DNA from: Saccharopolyspora galaxeae
Lineage (GTDB): Bacteria > Actinomycetota > Actinomycetes > Mycobacteriales > Pseudonocardiaceae
Direction of reading: 5' to 3'
Assembly (NCBI RefSeq): GCF_016526145.1
Contig: NZ_JADDUE010000003.1
Coordinates: 1-64,000, forward strand
Length of the DNA stretch: 64,000 nt
The translations under genes were made by a program, and so were the position numbers. This document shows, in pieces, positions 52,551 to 57,209 of this stretch; within the stretch, counting starts at the first letter, position 1; the number at the start of each line of letters is the position of its first letter. Under the pieces are notes generated by a model. It worked only from the letters and a program-made list of their open reading frames with translations. It had not been told where the DNA came from and ran no database searches.

Positions 52551-53360
52551 TCAGGCCGGTGCGGCCTCCCCCGTCGCCGTGGCCGCACCGCTGGTCCCGC
52601 GGCGCACCACCTCGCTCATCACGGCGAGTTCCACGCCTTCGGCGGCGAAGGCGTCGCGAACCGCGCCCGCCACCTCGACCGCGTTCGGCCGGTCGCCGTG
52701 CAGGCAGATCGTTTCGGCCCGGACCGGCACGGCGTTGCCGTTGACCGAGGTGACTTCACCGCGCAGCACCGCCAACGCCTGCTCGGCGCACCGCTGCGGG
52801 TCCTTCGCGACCGGGTTCGGTTCGATGATGATGTGCCCGGCGTCGTCGTAGTCGAGGTCGGCGAACGCCTCGCGCACCACCGGAATCCCGCGCTCGGCGA
52901 CCTGATCCGCGGTCTGCCCGGCCAGCAGCACGACCGGAACACCGGGCGCCGCGGCCGCCACCGCTTCCCCGACCGCCTGCGCCGCGGCCGCGTCCCGCAA
53001 CGTGAGCCCGTAGAGCGCACCGTGCGGTTTGACGTGCGTGATCGGCACACCCATCTCGTCGGCCAGCGCCCGCAGCGCGCCGAACTGGTAGAGGCACGCG
53101 TCCGCCGCCTCCCGCGGGCTGAACGAGATCGCGCGCCTGCCGAACCCGGCCAGGTCCGGGAACCCCGGGTGCGCGCCCGCCGCGACCCCGGCCTCGCGCG
53201 CGATCCGCAGCGACGCACGCATCGTGGCCGGGTCCCCGGCGTGCCATCCGCACGCGATGTTCACCGAGCTGACCAACGGGATCAGCCGTTCGTCCGCACC
53301 CAGCTGCCACCTGCCGAAGCTTTCCCCGGCGTCCGCGTTGAGATCGACGAGAACCTGCAA
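52551..53360 (-). CDS. pxpA: 5-oxoprolinase subunit A (LamB/YcsF family)
   Basis: A 269-residue LamB/YcsF protein: VDLNADAGESFGRW at the N terminus, SSVNIACGWHAGDP, GAHPGFPDLAGFGRR, HVKPHGALY and ETICLHGDRP. With PxpB and PxpC it hydrolyses 5-oxoproline (pyroglutamate) to glutamate using ATP. The TTG at 53360 is chosen: GGGAGG lies 8 nt upstream and the family normally begins a few residues before LNAD; the frame is open far upstream but not family-like. It is divergent from pxpB with a 350-bp shared promoter region. Confidence 0.9.
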   Translation of the reverse strand: MQVLVDLNADAGESFGRWQLGADERLIPLVSSVNIACGWHAGDPATMRASLRIAREAGVAAGAHPGFPDLAGFGRRAISFSPREAADACLYQFGALRALADEMGVPITHVKPHGALYGLTLRDAAAAQAVGEAVAAAAPGVPVVLLAGQTADQVAERGIPVVREAFADLDYDDAGHIIIEPNPVAKDPQRCAEQALAVLRGEVTSVNGNAVPVRAETICLHGDRPNAVEVAGAVRDAFAAEGVELAVMSEVVRRGTSGAATATGEAAPA

Positions 53361-53580
53361 CCGACCCACCTCCCGCAGCGTCTGCAGCGGCCGAAACCGG
53401 GCCTTGCCCTGCGATGATCCGCCGGCCGCGTGCCGATGGTACGAGCCATGCTCCCGCAGCCACCGGTCGAGCACAGTGCTCCGTTCGGCCGCTGCGGGCG
53501 CGGCCGTGCCGCGCATCGCGCCGCCGTTCGGCGCAACCGGGTGCCTGCGTTCGCGCGTACCGGCCGCCCGGGACCGGCCG

Positions 53581-53586
53581 CTATGG
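53581..53586 (+). promoter_or_regulatory. Candidate -10 of the pxpBC-accBC operon
   Basis: TATGGT in a GC-rich context, giving a start near 53593 and a leader of about 118 nt before the pxpB ATG. No clear -35. A minus-strand TACCAT at 53438-53443 may serve pxpA. The rest of 53361-53710 shows no gene. Confidence 0.3.
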
Positions 53587-53710
53587 TGACCCGAACGTGC
53601 GATTTTCCCAGCGCCGTCCATCGAGTTCACAGCCGTGCCCCTGCGCGGCCAATGGCTTCGGCGCATCCTCGATGCACGGCAGATCACCTCCGAGGCCCGA
53701 GGAGGTCGAC

Positions 53711-54607: not shown

Positions 54608-55587
54608 TGAGCGAGGTCATCGTCCGCTCCGGAGGGCTGTCCACGACGGTGCAGGACCTGGGCCGCGACGGGCAGTACGCCATCGGGATGCCGCCGTCCG
54701 GCGCGCTGGACCAGTTCTCCTACCGCGTGGCGAACATGCTGGTGGGCAATCCGGTCGGCGCGGCCGCGCTGGAGGCCACCTACATCGGTCCCGAGCTGGA
54801 GTTCACCGACGAACGCCAGATCGCGATCACCGGCGCCGATGCTCCCGCCCGGATCAACGGAGAACCGGTGCCGCCGTGGGAAACGCTGCTGGTGCGCACC
54901 GGCGACGTGCTCGGCTTCGAGATGCTGCGCTCCGGCGCCCGGCCGTACGTCGCGATCAGCGGTGGCGTGGCCGTGCCCGAATACCTCGGCTCGCGGTCGA
55001 CCTACACGCTCACCGGCATCGGCGGGTTCGAGGGCCGTTCGCTCGCCCAGGGCGACCGGCTGCCGCTGGGTGAGCGTCCGGCCAGCAGCCCGGCACCCGG
55101 CACCGCGGTTCCGGTCGAGCTGCGCCCGGACTTCAGCGGCGAGGCCGAACTGCGACTGGTGGTGGGGCTGTGCTCCTACCGGCTCACCGCGGCCGCGCTG
55201 GAGTCCTTCGGGGAAACGACGTGGAAGGTCACCAAGGACGCCGACCGGGTCGGCTACCGGCTGCGCGGCGGCACGATCGACTTCGTCGAGCGCGAGCAGC
55301 CGTTCGGGGCGGGCAGCGACCCGGCCAACGTGGTCGACCTGGGCTATCCGATCGGCTCGGTGCAGGTGCCCGGCGGAAACGAGCCGATCGTGCTGCTCGG
55401 CGACGCGGTCACCGGCGGCGGCTACGCCACCGTCGGCACCGTGATCTCGGTGGATCGGGACCGCATCGCGCAGGCCCGCACCGGGGACCGGGTCGGCTTC
55501 GTACCGGTCGACGTGGAGGCGGCGATGGCCGCGCGCCGGGACCGCACCGCGCGGTTGGAGAAGGTCCGCGCCGCCGTCTCCGGATGA
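54607..55587 (+). CDS. pxpC: 5-oxoprolinase subunit C (KipA family)
   Basis: A 326-residue KipA-family protein (carboxyltransferase subdomain A/B): VRSGGLSTTVQDLGRDGQYAIGMPPSGALDQFSYRVAN, AALEATYIGPELEF, YVAISGGVAVPEYLGSRSTY, DRVGYRLRGG and the C-terminal EPIVLLGDAVTGGGYATVGTV. Together with KipI it is homologous to the carboxyltransferase domain of urea carboxylase. Start ATG 54607, one base overlapping pxpB; GTG 54604 is an alternative. Confidence 0.92.
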   Translation: MSEVIVRSGGLSTTVQDLGRDGQYAIGMPPSGALDQFSYRVANMLVGNPVGAAALEATYIGPELEFTDERQIAITGADAPARINGEPVPPWETLLVRTGDVLGFEMLRSGARPYVAISGGVAVPEYLGSRSTYTLTGIGGFEGRSLAQGDRLPLGERPASSPAPGTAVPVELRPDFSGEAELRLVVGLCSYRLTAAALESFGETTWKVTKDADRVGYRLRGGTIDFVEREQPFGAGSDPANVVDLGYPIGSVQVPGGNEPIVLLGDAVTGGGYATVGTVISVDRDRIAQARTGDRVGFVPVDVEAAMAARRDRTARLEKVRAAVSG

Positions 55588-55629
55588 ACCCGGCCCGGCA
55601 AACCAACCCGATATCGACGAGGAGGTCCC

Positions 55630-55869
55630 ATGTCGACCGTCAGCGCAGCACTCCCCGGCGTGTTCTACCGCCGCCCCTCGCCTGACCAGGACCCGTTCGT
55701 CGAGGTCGGCGGCGCGGTCCGGGAAGGCGAGACGATCGCGCTCATCGAGGTGATGAAGACCTTCACCGAGGTCAAGGCCGAGTCCGCGGGAACCATCGGG
55801 CGCTTCCTGCTCGACGACGGCGACGAAGTGGAAGCCGGGCAGGAACTGATCGAGGTCGTGGAAGCATGA
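55630..55869 (+). CDS. accB: Biotin carboxyl carrier protein (short)
   Basis: A 79-residue biotinyl domain with the attachment lysine K43 in the EVMKT motif. It lacks the usual N-terminal Ala/Pro-rich extension of fatty-acid BCCP and is essentially only the biotinyl domain, as in dedicated small carriers. ATG 55630 follows GAGGAGG. The last codons overlap accC (ATGA). Its partners are the neighbouring biotin carboxylase and probably the KipI/KipA pair. Confidence 0.92.
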   Translation: MSTVSAALPGVFYRRPSPDQDPFVEVGGAVREGETIALIEVMKTFTEVKAESAGTIGRFLLDDGDEVEAGQELIEVVEA

Positions 55870-57209
55870 CGGGGCCGGGGCGGGTCCTGGTCGCGAACCG
55901 GGGCGAGATCGCGGTACGCATCATCCGCGCCTGCCACACCGCGGGTGTGGAGGCCGTCGCGGTGTACTCCGACGCCGACAAGAACTCCCGGTGGGTCCAG
56001 CTGGCCGACCACGCGGTGCACATCGGCCCGTCGCCCGCCGCGAAGTCCTACTTGGACTCCGCCGCGCTGCTGGAGGCCGCGCGCAGCACCCACGCCGACG
56101 CCGTGCATCCCGGCTACGGCTTCCTGTCCGAGAACGCCGCGTTCGCCCGCGCGGTGCAGGACGCGGGACTCGTGCTGATCGGCCCACCGGCCTCGGCGAT
56201 CGAGCTGATGGGCGACAAGGCCACCGCGCGGGCGACCGCGCGGGCCGCGGGCGTGCCGGTGGTGCCGGGCAGCGAACCGGTGACCGACCTGGCCGCCGCG
56301 CAGGCCGCCGCCGCGGAGATCGGCTACCCGGTGCTGGTCAAGGCTGCCGCCGGCGGTGGCGGGCGCGGCATCCGCCCGGTCTCCTCGGCCGAGGAGCTGG
56401 CCGACGTGCTGCCGGCCGCGCAGGCCGAGGCCCGTTCCGCCTTCGGTGACGGCACGTCGTACCTGGAACGGGCGCTGGCCCGGCCGCGGCACGTCGAGGT
56501 GCAGGTCCTCGCCGACGATCACGGCAACGTGGTGCACCTGTTCGAGCGGGACTGCTCGGTCCAGCGGCGCAGGCAGAAACTGCTGGAAGAAGCGCCCGCA
56601 CCGGGCTTGCACGAACGGACCAGGGAACTGATGACCGACGCGGCGGTGCGGCTGGCGCGGCACGTCGGCTACCGCAACGCCGGGACCGTGGAGTTCCTGG
56701 TCGACGAGGACCGAAACTTCTACTTCATGGAGATGAACACCCGCATCCAGGTGGAACACCCGGTCAGCGAGCTGGTCAGCGGGGTCGACCTGGTCGCCGA
56801 GCAGCTGCGGGTCGCCGCGGGCAAACCGATCTCGTGCACCCAGCGGCAGCTGACCCGCAACGGTGCCGCGGTGGAGCTGCGGATCAACGCCGAGGACCCG
56901 GACCACGACTTCGCGCCCTGCCCCGGCGAGGTCACCGCGTTCGACCTGCCCGGCGGGCCGGGCGTGCGGGTGGACACCGGGCTGACTCGCGGCGACCGGA
57001 TCAGCCCGTTCTACGACTCCATGATCGCCAAGCTGATCTGCTGGGGAGCCGATCGGGAGCAGGCTTACTCGCGGGCCAGGCAGGCGCTCGCGGAGTTCCG
57101 GATCGAAGGGGTCGCCAACACGATCGGACTGCACCAGCGCCTGGTCGACGACGACAAGCTGCGCAGCTGCCCGGTGCACACGACGTGGCTGGAAGAGCAG
57201 CTGGACTGA
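55866..57209 (+). CDS. accC: Biotin carboxylase
   Basis: A 447-residue biotin carboxylase: VANRGEIAVRIIRACHTAG, HPGYGFLSENAAFARA, the glycine-rich ATP-grasp loop AAAGGGGRGIRPV, FLVDEDRNFYFMEMNTRIQVEHP (catalytic region) and RINAEDPDHDFAPCPG. It carboxylates biotin on BCCP with bicarbonate and ATP. No classical carboxyltransferase gene is adjacent; the KipI/KipA proteins encoded upstream are the candidate acceptor module. The stop is directly followed by the convergent GNAT gene. Confidence 0.94.
   Translation: MTGPGRVLVANRGEIAVRIIRACHTAGVEAVAVYSDADKNSRWVQLADHAVHIGPSPAAKSYLDSAALLEAARSTHADAVHPGYGFLSENAAFARAVQDAGLVLIGPPASAIELMGDKATARATARAAGVPVVPGSEPVTDLAAAQAAAAEIGYPVLVKAAAGGGGRGIRPVSSAEELADVLPAAQAEARSAFGDGTSYLERALARPRHVEVQVLADDHGNVVHLFERDCSVQRRRQKLLEEAPAPGLHERTRELMTDAAVRLARHVGYRNAGTVEFLVDEDRNFYFMEMNTRIQVEHPVSELVSGVDLVAEQLRVAAGKPISCTQRQLTRNGAAVELRINAEDPDHDFAPCPGEVTAFDLPGGPGVRVDTGLTRGDRISPFYDSMIAKLICWGADREQAYSRARQALAEFRIEGVANTIGLHQRLVDDDKLRSCPVHTTWLEEQLD

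Follow-up and report, generated by a model that had tools for sequence, protein, structure and literature searches.

The described systems closest to the locus reported here are the PxpABC 5-oxoprolinases, urea carboxylase and the ATP-dependent lactam hydrolases. PxpABC is used by E. coli and B. subtilis with no biotin carboxylase linked to it. In C. glutamicum, growth on 5-oxoproline requires the pxpR/pxpTABC cluster, and PxpBC is assumed in the report of that cluster to phosphorylate 5-oxoproline with ATP (PMC13274462). Split urea-carboxylase-like carboxyltransferase genes were remarked on as unstudied by Lombard and Moreira in 2011 (PMC3199775). The caprolactamase CapAB requires both ATP and bicarbonate, and one mechanism that its authors propose is carboxylation of the lactam (PMC8453981). 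Here we describe a set of five genes in a 64,000-nt stretch of Saccharopolyspora galaxeae DNA (the window, to which coordinates refer unless another locus or contig is named), encoding homologs of PxpA, PxpB and PxpC together with a small biotin carrier (AccB) and a biotin carboxylase (AccC). Genes and proteins of the window are marked with a prime. From comparison with related genes and genomes, the five genes probably encode a split biotin-dependent lactam carboxylase-hydrolase.

Domain content of the locus

Four of the genes lie on the plus strand. The first, pxpB' (53711-54607; 298 aa), encodes carboxyltransferase subdomains C and D of the urea carboxylase type with a C-terminal extension, and its stop codon overlaps by one base the ATG of pxpC' (54607-55587; 326 aa), which encodes subdomains A and B and carries the loop FGAGSDPANVVD. 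After a gap of 42 bp follows accB' (55630-55869; 79 aa), a minimal biotin carrier with the motif EVMKTF and biotinyl lysine K43, which overlaps the biotin carboxylase gene accC' (55866-57209; 447 aa) by 4 nt. The fifth gene, pxpA' (52551-53360, minus strand), belongs to the LamB/YcsF family and is divergent from the other four. An earlier note on this DNA had described overlaps, gaps of at most 42 bp and a divergent pxpA, and the gene coordinates agree exactly with it. The start of pxpA' is uncertain: an open reading frame of 378 aa extends to 53687 and is probably too long, because the family domain starts at 53348. The ~350 bp between the divergent genes (53361-53710, no strand) presumably hold a promoter region common to pxpA' and pxpB'.

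Pfam domains are LamB_YcsF in PxpA', CT_C_D in PxpB', CT_A_B in PxpC', Biotin_lipoyl in AccB', and Biotin_carb_N, CPSase_L_D2 and Biotin_carb_C in AccC'. PxpA' matches the PxpA subfamily model NF003814 with 289.6 bits (cut-off 226). AccB' scores 110 bits with NF005457 (cut-off 87) and 71.5 bits with the biotin carboxyl carrier protein equivalog TIGR00531, below its cut-off of 115.2. Along the 1201 positions of the NCBIfam urea carboxylase model TIGR02712, AccC' (positions 3-441, 521 bits), PxpC' (449-767, 238 bits), PxpB' (796-1077, 110 bits) and AccB' (1147-1199, 30 bits) follow one after another; these are scores of separate chains, and the full-model cut-off of 1303.85 is reached by none. 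All four together thus supply every domain of that enzyme, as the earlier note had claimed. Its names PxpB and PxpC call for correction, since both proteins score higher as urea carboxylase: PxpB' 110 against 64.6 bits as PxpB (TIGR00370, cut-off 145.55), and PxpC' 238 against 209.3 bits as PxpC (NF045499, cut-off 500). The genome's own canonical proteins also stay under these cut-offs, PxpB slightly (138.2 bits) and PxpC likewise (215.6 bits).

Conservation of the five-gene set

A tblastn search of plasmid records with PxpB' returned 604 places in 561 records, related kinds included. The best rows were mostly haloarchaeal at 55-62% identity, with Rubrobacter among them. Eight loci were opened out of the 40 best rows: all eight have the small carrier, PxpB' and PxpC' together, and a PxpA, and seven have AccC. 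The Natrialba locus (L039) has its PxpA ~6.6 kb from pxpB' and no AccC in the stretch; an 'ATP-binding protein' considered for that role was ruled out, being an archaeal ATPase. To these eight we added the best 80 of at least 566 PxpB' relatives in a scan of named genomes. The resulting 88 module loci, chosen by similarity to PxpB', span actinobacteria, bacilli, proteobacteria and haloarchaea, and gene presence was counted within 8 kb.

The earlier note had raised co-occurrence across genomes, and this is what we find: all five genes are together in 71 of the 88 loci, in nine different orders and over a span of 4.2-6.0 kb. Counted gene by gene, 84 loci have a small accB (a carrier of ~80 residues) no more than 8 kb from pxpB', the remaining four ending at contig ends, while accC is present in 75 and pxpA in 82. 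As a control, we took 40 canonical loci (39 from actinomycetes and the genome's own). None of these has a small accB and two have accC, in both cases as a fused carboxylase-carrier gene next to pxpC. Genes for the biotin synthase BioB and the importer BioY stand beside four and six module loci, respectively, and beside no control. In Thermomicrobium roseum the row comprises a molybdenum-enzyme trio, a TorT-type ATP-binding cassette (ABC) importer, the small carrier, pxpB', pxpC', pxpA and bioY, with no accC in the stretch.

The biotin-lysine motif is present in all 84 module carriers, and the GGGG loop and the ExNxRxQxEH motif in all 75 near-full-length AccC proteins of module loci. Strict AccC patterns matched 52, 71 and 52 of 73; relaxing the first two brought this to 75 of 75, and a relaxed third was uninformative. 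In the reverse direction, a model of the small carrier was run on 296 actinobacterial genomes (S. galaxeae included) and the best 30 loci were fetched. All 15 loci scoring at least 107.7 bits, the window's among them, adjoin pxpA, pxpC or the linked molybdenum-enzyme gene, three shortened ones showing pxpA or the molybdenum gene and not pxpC. The 15 with scores of at most 100 bits lie beside an accC, and none of them adjoins pxp genes. The small carrier is thus a dedicated subfamily. Because 71 of 88 loci hold all five genes in nine orders, and given the reverse carrier search, the five-gene set is a conserved unit, beyond chance.

The whole module or part of it is present in haloarchaea, in some of them on plasmids (L038, L039, L083, L085, L088, L092, L094, L099, L102, L105, L108, L110 and L113), which suggests transfer between domains. 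In Bacillota, a second urea-carboxylase-like PxpBC pair is found a few kb downstream of the module (L061, L063, L065, L071, L078, L082, L086 and L100); it is 39-49% identical to the window's pair and forms its own clade.

Relationship to urea carboxylase

The PxpB domain measures 289-300 aa in the module (90 rows), 283-334 aa in urea carboxylase (15 rows) and 182-259 aa in canonical sets (37 rows), with 11 second-copy and three odd rows set apart. Alignment columns common to the module and urea carboxylase and not to canonical sequences number 21 in PxpB and 11 in PxpC, against 5 and 9, respectively, that the module has in common with canonical sequences and not with urea carboxylase. The PxpC loop pattern G.G..P[AST]N is found in the window and in 78 of 87 module rows, and in none of 40 canonical and 15 urea carboxylase sequences; the PxpC-type region of urea carboxylase has a similar loop whose other spacing places it outside this pattern. 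In a PxpC tree of 107 sequences (quick search, no bootstrap, midpoint rooting), a branch with support 100 sets off the module together with the second Bacillota copies, the canonical sequences form another side (89), and urea carboxylase joins the module by midpoint rooting (98).

Predicted models of PxpB' and PxpC' (mean predicted local distance difference test scores of 86.8 and 89.2) were compared with solved structures. PxpB' aligns with K. lactis urea carboxylase over 280 residues (model residues 4-289; PDB code 3va7, Z 25.6, root-mean-square deviation 3.1) and with 5i8i over 282 residues (Z 20.7), whereas its alignments with ordinary PxpB cover 204 residues (3mml, Z 19.5) and about 200 residues (5dud, Z 18.1). 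For PxpC', the matches are 5i8i (Z 40.8, 318 residues), E. coli YbgK (Z 39.6, 300 residues) and 3va7 (Z 29.1, 318 residues). Domain coverage, lengths, alignment columns, the tree and the predicted PxpB' fold thus lend good comparative support to the earlier description of the locus as a urea-carboxylase-like enzyme in pieces.

In Actinomadura and Amycolatopsis, the module has upstream of it a further divergent PxpBC pair (L057:6748-9028 and L101:5077-7370), whose PxpC clusters near urea carboxylase and Thermomicrobium.

Proposed reaction and substrates

We infer the reaction, the order of its steps and its substrate as follows. AccC' would carboxylate the biotin on AccB' from ATP and bicarbonate, and PxpB' with PxpC', the equivalent of the urea carboxylase carboxyltransferase, would load the CO2 onto a cyclic amide at its ring nitrogen. 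This N-carboxylation, if the analogy with urea carboxylase holds, would make a stable amide reactive. PxpA' would hydrolyse the activated N-carboxylactam ring, and the carbamate would then release CO2 to give an amino acid. The substrates are most likely small lactams that give an omega-amino acid, and our best single guess is 2-pyrrolidone, with γ-aminobutyric acid (GABA) as the product.

This assignment draws on the module's neighbours. In Halobacillus (L070) the order on one strand is gabT-pxpB'-pxpC'-accB-accC-pxpA-ssadh; its gabT exceeds the GABA transaminase cut-off, and its succinate semialdehyde dehydrogenase (SSADH) scores 640.9, just below 646.35. In Agrobacterium (L042), gabT and ssadh follow pxpC'. 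Class III aminotransferase genes accompany 20 of the 88 module loci, GABA transaminases by the strict threshold nine and molybdenum hydroxylases 27, each against none of the 40 controls, and an SSADH-like gene accompanies nine against one control. Molybdenum hydroxylases commonly produce cyclic amides from N-heterocycles. Such neighbours (GABA transaminase, SSADH or molybdenum hydroxylases) point to a lactam, for instance 2-pyrrolidone. In the lamA/lamB system of Aspergillus nidulans, 2-pyrrolidone use needs LamB, a protein of the PxpA family; our literature searches found no text confirming this and none that describes fungal lamA as a urea carboxylase relative.

A TorT-like binding protein is linked to the module in 14 loci (L041, L103, L106, L107, L111, L112, L114, L116, L117, L120, L122, L123, L124 and L194), accompanied in 13 of them by a ribose-type ABC importer. 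The hosts are proteobacteria, Thermomicrobium and two other bacterial genome bins. The ligand of this protein could reveal the substrate of the module.

Counter-evidence and alternative explanations

Several observations weigh against a dedicated biotin-dependent lactam enzyme. Thirteen of the 88 module loci show no accC gene within 8 kb, nine of them having full 10-kb flanks (seven of those nine being bacilli): a dedicated carboxylase is not always adjacent to the module. pxpA is missing from six loci, one of them (L063) with long flanks. By fold, the PxpC' model is not separable between urea carboxylase and PxpC. A single common pathway is unsupported, as a molybdenum hydroxylase and an aminotransferase co-occur in only 3 of 91 loci, for which reason substrates probably differ between lineages. 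The window is flanked by a glutamate decarboxylase gene, not by a GABA transaminase gene, and the genome's best GABA transaminase match falls below the cut-off and lies on another contig. Finally, the control loci behind the accB and accC counts are from actinomycetes only, and canonical sets elsewhere can also be linked to biotin enzymes. Ten further plasmid loci were opened with a canonical PxpB as query, of which one (L194) proved to be of the module type and nine of the canonical type. Seven of these nine carry biotin carboxylase and/or carrier genes. In L186, L187 and L188, a fused biotin carboxylase-carrier of 573-594 aa directly follows a fused PxpBC; in L191, L192 and L195 carrier and carboxylase are separate genes; and in L193 two carrier-like genes occur, the stretch showing no accC. 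Neither gene occurs in the opened stretches of L189 and L190. An NRAMP-family (PxpT-type) gene is also present in L186, L188 and L191.

Because seven of nine canonical-type plasmid loci outside actinomycetes carry these genes, linkage to a biotin carboxylase is by itself no marker of a different substrate. As a mark of the urea-carboxylase-like PxpB' family only, the link is refuted by the canonical sets with fused or separate carboxylase. A tree with the added canonical rows, which counted carrier-only loci as linked and put 10 rows under 'other', requires the biotin carboxylase label to change at least seven times, five of these changes being forced by starred branches; this indicates that the association arose or was retained in several branches. 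In five loci (L186, L187, L188, L173 and L174), canonical-type pxpA and pxpBC stand beside a fused carboxylase-carrier gene, four of the five with a PxpT-type and/or YcsI-type gene near.

PDB entry 9yx5 (2025) is entitled 'Structure of the long chain acyl-CoA carboxylase complex from Mycobacterium smegmatis with MSMEG_0435-MSMEG_0436 bound'. PxpC- and PxpB-type proteins account for two of the chains and an alpha3 biotin carboxylase subunit is also present, so that the entry, by its title, physically links an ordinary PxpBC to a biotin enzyme. Biotin dependence may thus be general among PxpBC and not a trait of the module. It is possible, if on the whole doubtful, that the entire PxpABC '5-oxoprolinase' family is biotin-dependent, with PxpBC acting everywhere as an amide-N carboxyltransferase and unlinked genomes borrowing the carboxylated carrier of acyl-CoA carboxylase. 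Such borrowing is suggested by the binding of the mycobacterial PxpBC-type pair to the long-chain acyl-CoA carboxylase in the title of 9yx5. If the family were biotin-dependent throughout, the assumed ATP-phosphorylation mechanism would be wrong or incomplete. Component A of Pseudomonas 5-oxoprolinase is described as consisting, when purified, of polypeptides of 64 and 51 kDa (PMC8453981). In three alphaproteobacteria the carboxylase-carrier fusion and the fused PxpBC have masses of 60.9-62.8 and 54.3-56.0 kDa, and with family-wide biotin dependence component A could be such a pair, the sizes matching roughly.

A more specific alternative is that the window set is a biotin-dependent 5-oxoprolinase, with the same chemistry and a glutamate product that the neighbouring decarboxylase converts to GABA. 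This would agree with the match of PxpA' to the PxpA subfamily model, and with the glutamate decarboxylase gene (gad; 50141-51448, plus strand; TIGR01788, 469.7 bits, cut-off 380.4) being a conserved neighbour in 10 loci. Elsewhere, moreover, a biotin carboxylase adjoins pxpABC with a PxpT-type and/or ycsI-type gene near (L186, L188, L191, L173 and L174). However, the genome holds a second, complete pxpA-pxpB-pxpC set (C31:335957-338173; L003), with an NRAMP-family (PxpT-type) gene before pxpA, a YcsI-type hydro-lyase gene (407 bits, cut-off 324) after pxpC and a divergent GntR/FCD regulator gene. No biotin carboxylase was detected in the L003 stretch, whose layout is similar to that described for C. 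glutamicum pxpR/pxpTABC (PMC13274462). Moreover, pxpT and ycsI stand beside none of the 88 module loci, and beside 7 and 8 of the 40 canonical ones. Because a separate pxpABC operon with a 5-oxoproline-type transporter is present, the window set is probably not the genome's 5-oxoprolinase, and we consider this alternative unlikely. Of the earlier proposal of a biotin-dependent step before the opening of 5-oxoproline or another cyclic amide, the step itself is favoured by our comparisons, and 5-oxoproline as its substrate is not.

Less probable still is a carboxylase in pieces for urea, guanidine or another acyclic ureide, in which PxpA' would replace allophanate hydrolase. Urea carboxylase is the closest characterised relative of the four parts combined, no fused urea carboxylase was found in the genome, where CT_C_D occurs in the two split sets and nowhere else, and an amidase gene lies near the module in Haladaptatus (L038) and Rubrobacter (L040). 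Yet the ten window genes scanned (50141 to 60250) include no allophanate-hydrolase-type amidase, pxpA is retained in most module loci, the neighbours suggest omega-amino acids, and the PxpC' clade is separate from urea carboxylase.

That AccB' and AccC' serve an acyl-CoA carboxylase elsewhere, with PxpA', PxpB' and PxpC' forming a biotin-free ATP-dependent lactamase, would suit the seven acyl-CoA carboxyltransferase (PF01039) places in the genome, the phosphorylation mechanism assumed for PxpBC and the unlinked PxpABC of E. coli and B. subtilis, but is very improbable, as all seven are on contigs other than the window's (C28), the distinct carrier subfamily exceeds 107 bits only beside pxp genes in the reverse search, and the small carrier is kept with them through nine gene orders.

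Neighbouring genes in the window

At lower coordinates than the minus-strand pxpA' lies a carbon-nitrogen (nitrilase-family) hydrolase gene (51556-52491, plus strand); it and gad adjoin the same 10 of 88 module loci, all from Saccharopolyspora or Actinopolyspora. Downstream of the module are a methyltransferase gene (57849-58490), whose product resembles ornithine-lipid or phospholipid N-methyltransferases with scores under the cut-offs, and one for an FAD monooxygenase near the ArsO family (59084-60250; 348 bits, cut-off 425). The downstream genes were considered as a continuation of the pathway and rejected, those from 60257 on being a separate minus-strand group. This cluster (60257-64000, and L196:4258-10963) encodes an F420-dependent luciferase-like enzyme, a dihydropyrimidinase, a class III aminotransferase, a ureidopropionase-like hydrolase and an FAD oxidoreductase, and looks like pyrimidine breakdown, separate from the module. 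Dihydropyrimidinase relatives above 150 bits are found near the module in only four haloarchaeal loci and in no Saccharopolyspora locus.

Significance and comparison with known systems

If our reading of the five genes as a lactam carboxylase-hydrolase is right, two known parts would combine into a new reaction class, biotin-dependent lactam opening, which would explain many genes: one scan alone holds the 566 or more PxpB' relatives noted above. Genes of the module type are annotated as 5-oxoprolinase subunits, allophanate hydrolase subunits or acetyl-CoA carboxylase. The role of the carboxyltransferase-like PxpB and PxpC would become a testable question, and practical routes for 2-pyrrolidone, caprolactam and other nylon-type lactams might follow. 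Among the papers listed by searches of the open literature we recognised no report of a biotin carboxylase with PxpABC or of biotin-dependent lactam opening, though subscription papers were mostly outside this search and novelty is unproved.

The lactam hydrolases CapAB and HyuAB/OplAB resemble the proposed enzyme in ATP-dependent lactam opening, and CapAB also in its need for bicarbonate; they are described without biotin, in the account available, and are stated there to be dissimilar to PxpABC (PMC8453981). The M. smegmatis pair MSMEG_0435-MSMEG_0436 is, going by entry 9yx5, like the window set in that PxpBC-type proteins are associated with a biotin carboxylase subunit, here in one complex, but its PxpB is of the short canonical type (210 aa), and its biotin partners belong to the acyl-CoA carboxylase and are not dedicated. 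The PxpABC 5-oxoprolinase described from C. glutamicum (pxpTABC; PMC13274462) has homologous PxpA, PxpB and PxpC. PxpB', however, exceeds the genome's canonical PxpB by ~90 residues and has its higher score with the urea carboxylase model, and the window set has a linked, dedicated carrier and carboxylase and no pxpT or ycsI neighbours that we could find. With urea carboxylase (K. lactis KlUC, 3va7 and 5i8i; TIGR02712) the window set has the same biotin carboxylase, CT-AB, CT-CD and carrier domains in common, and the PxpB' alignment is nearly full length. It differs in comprising four chains and not one, in having PxpA' in place of allophanate hydrolase, in the module's own clade in the PxpC tree and in a substrate that is probably cyclic.

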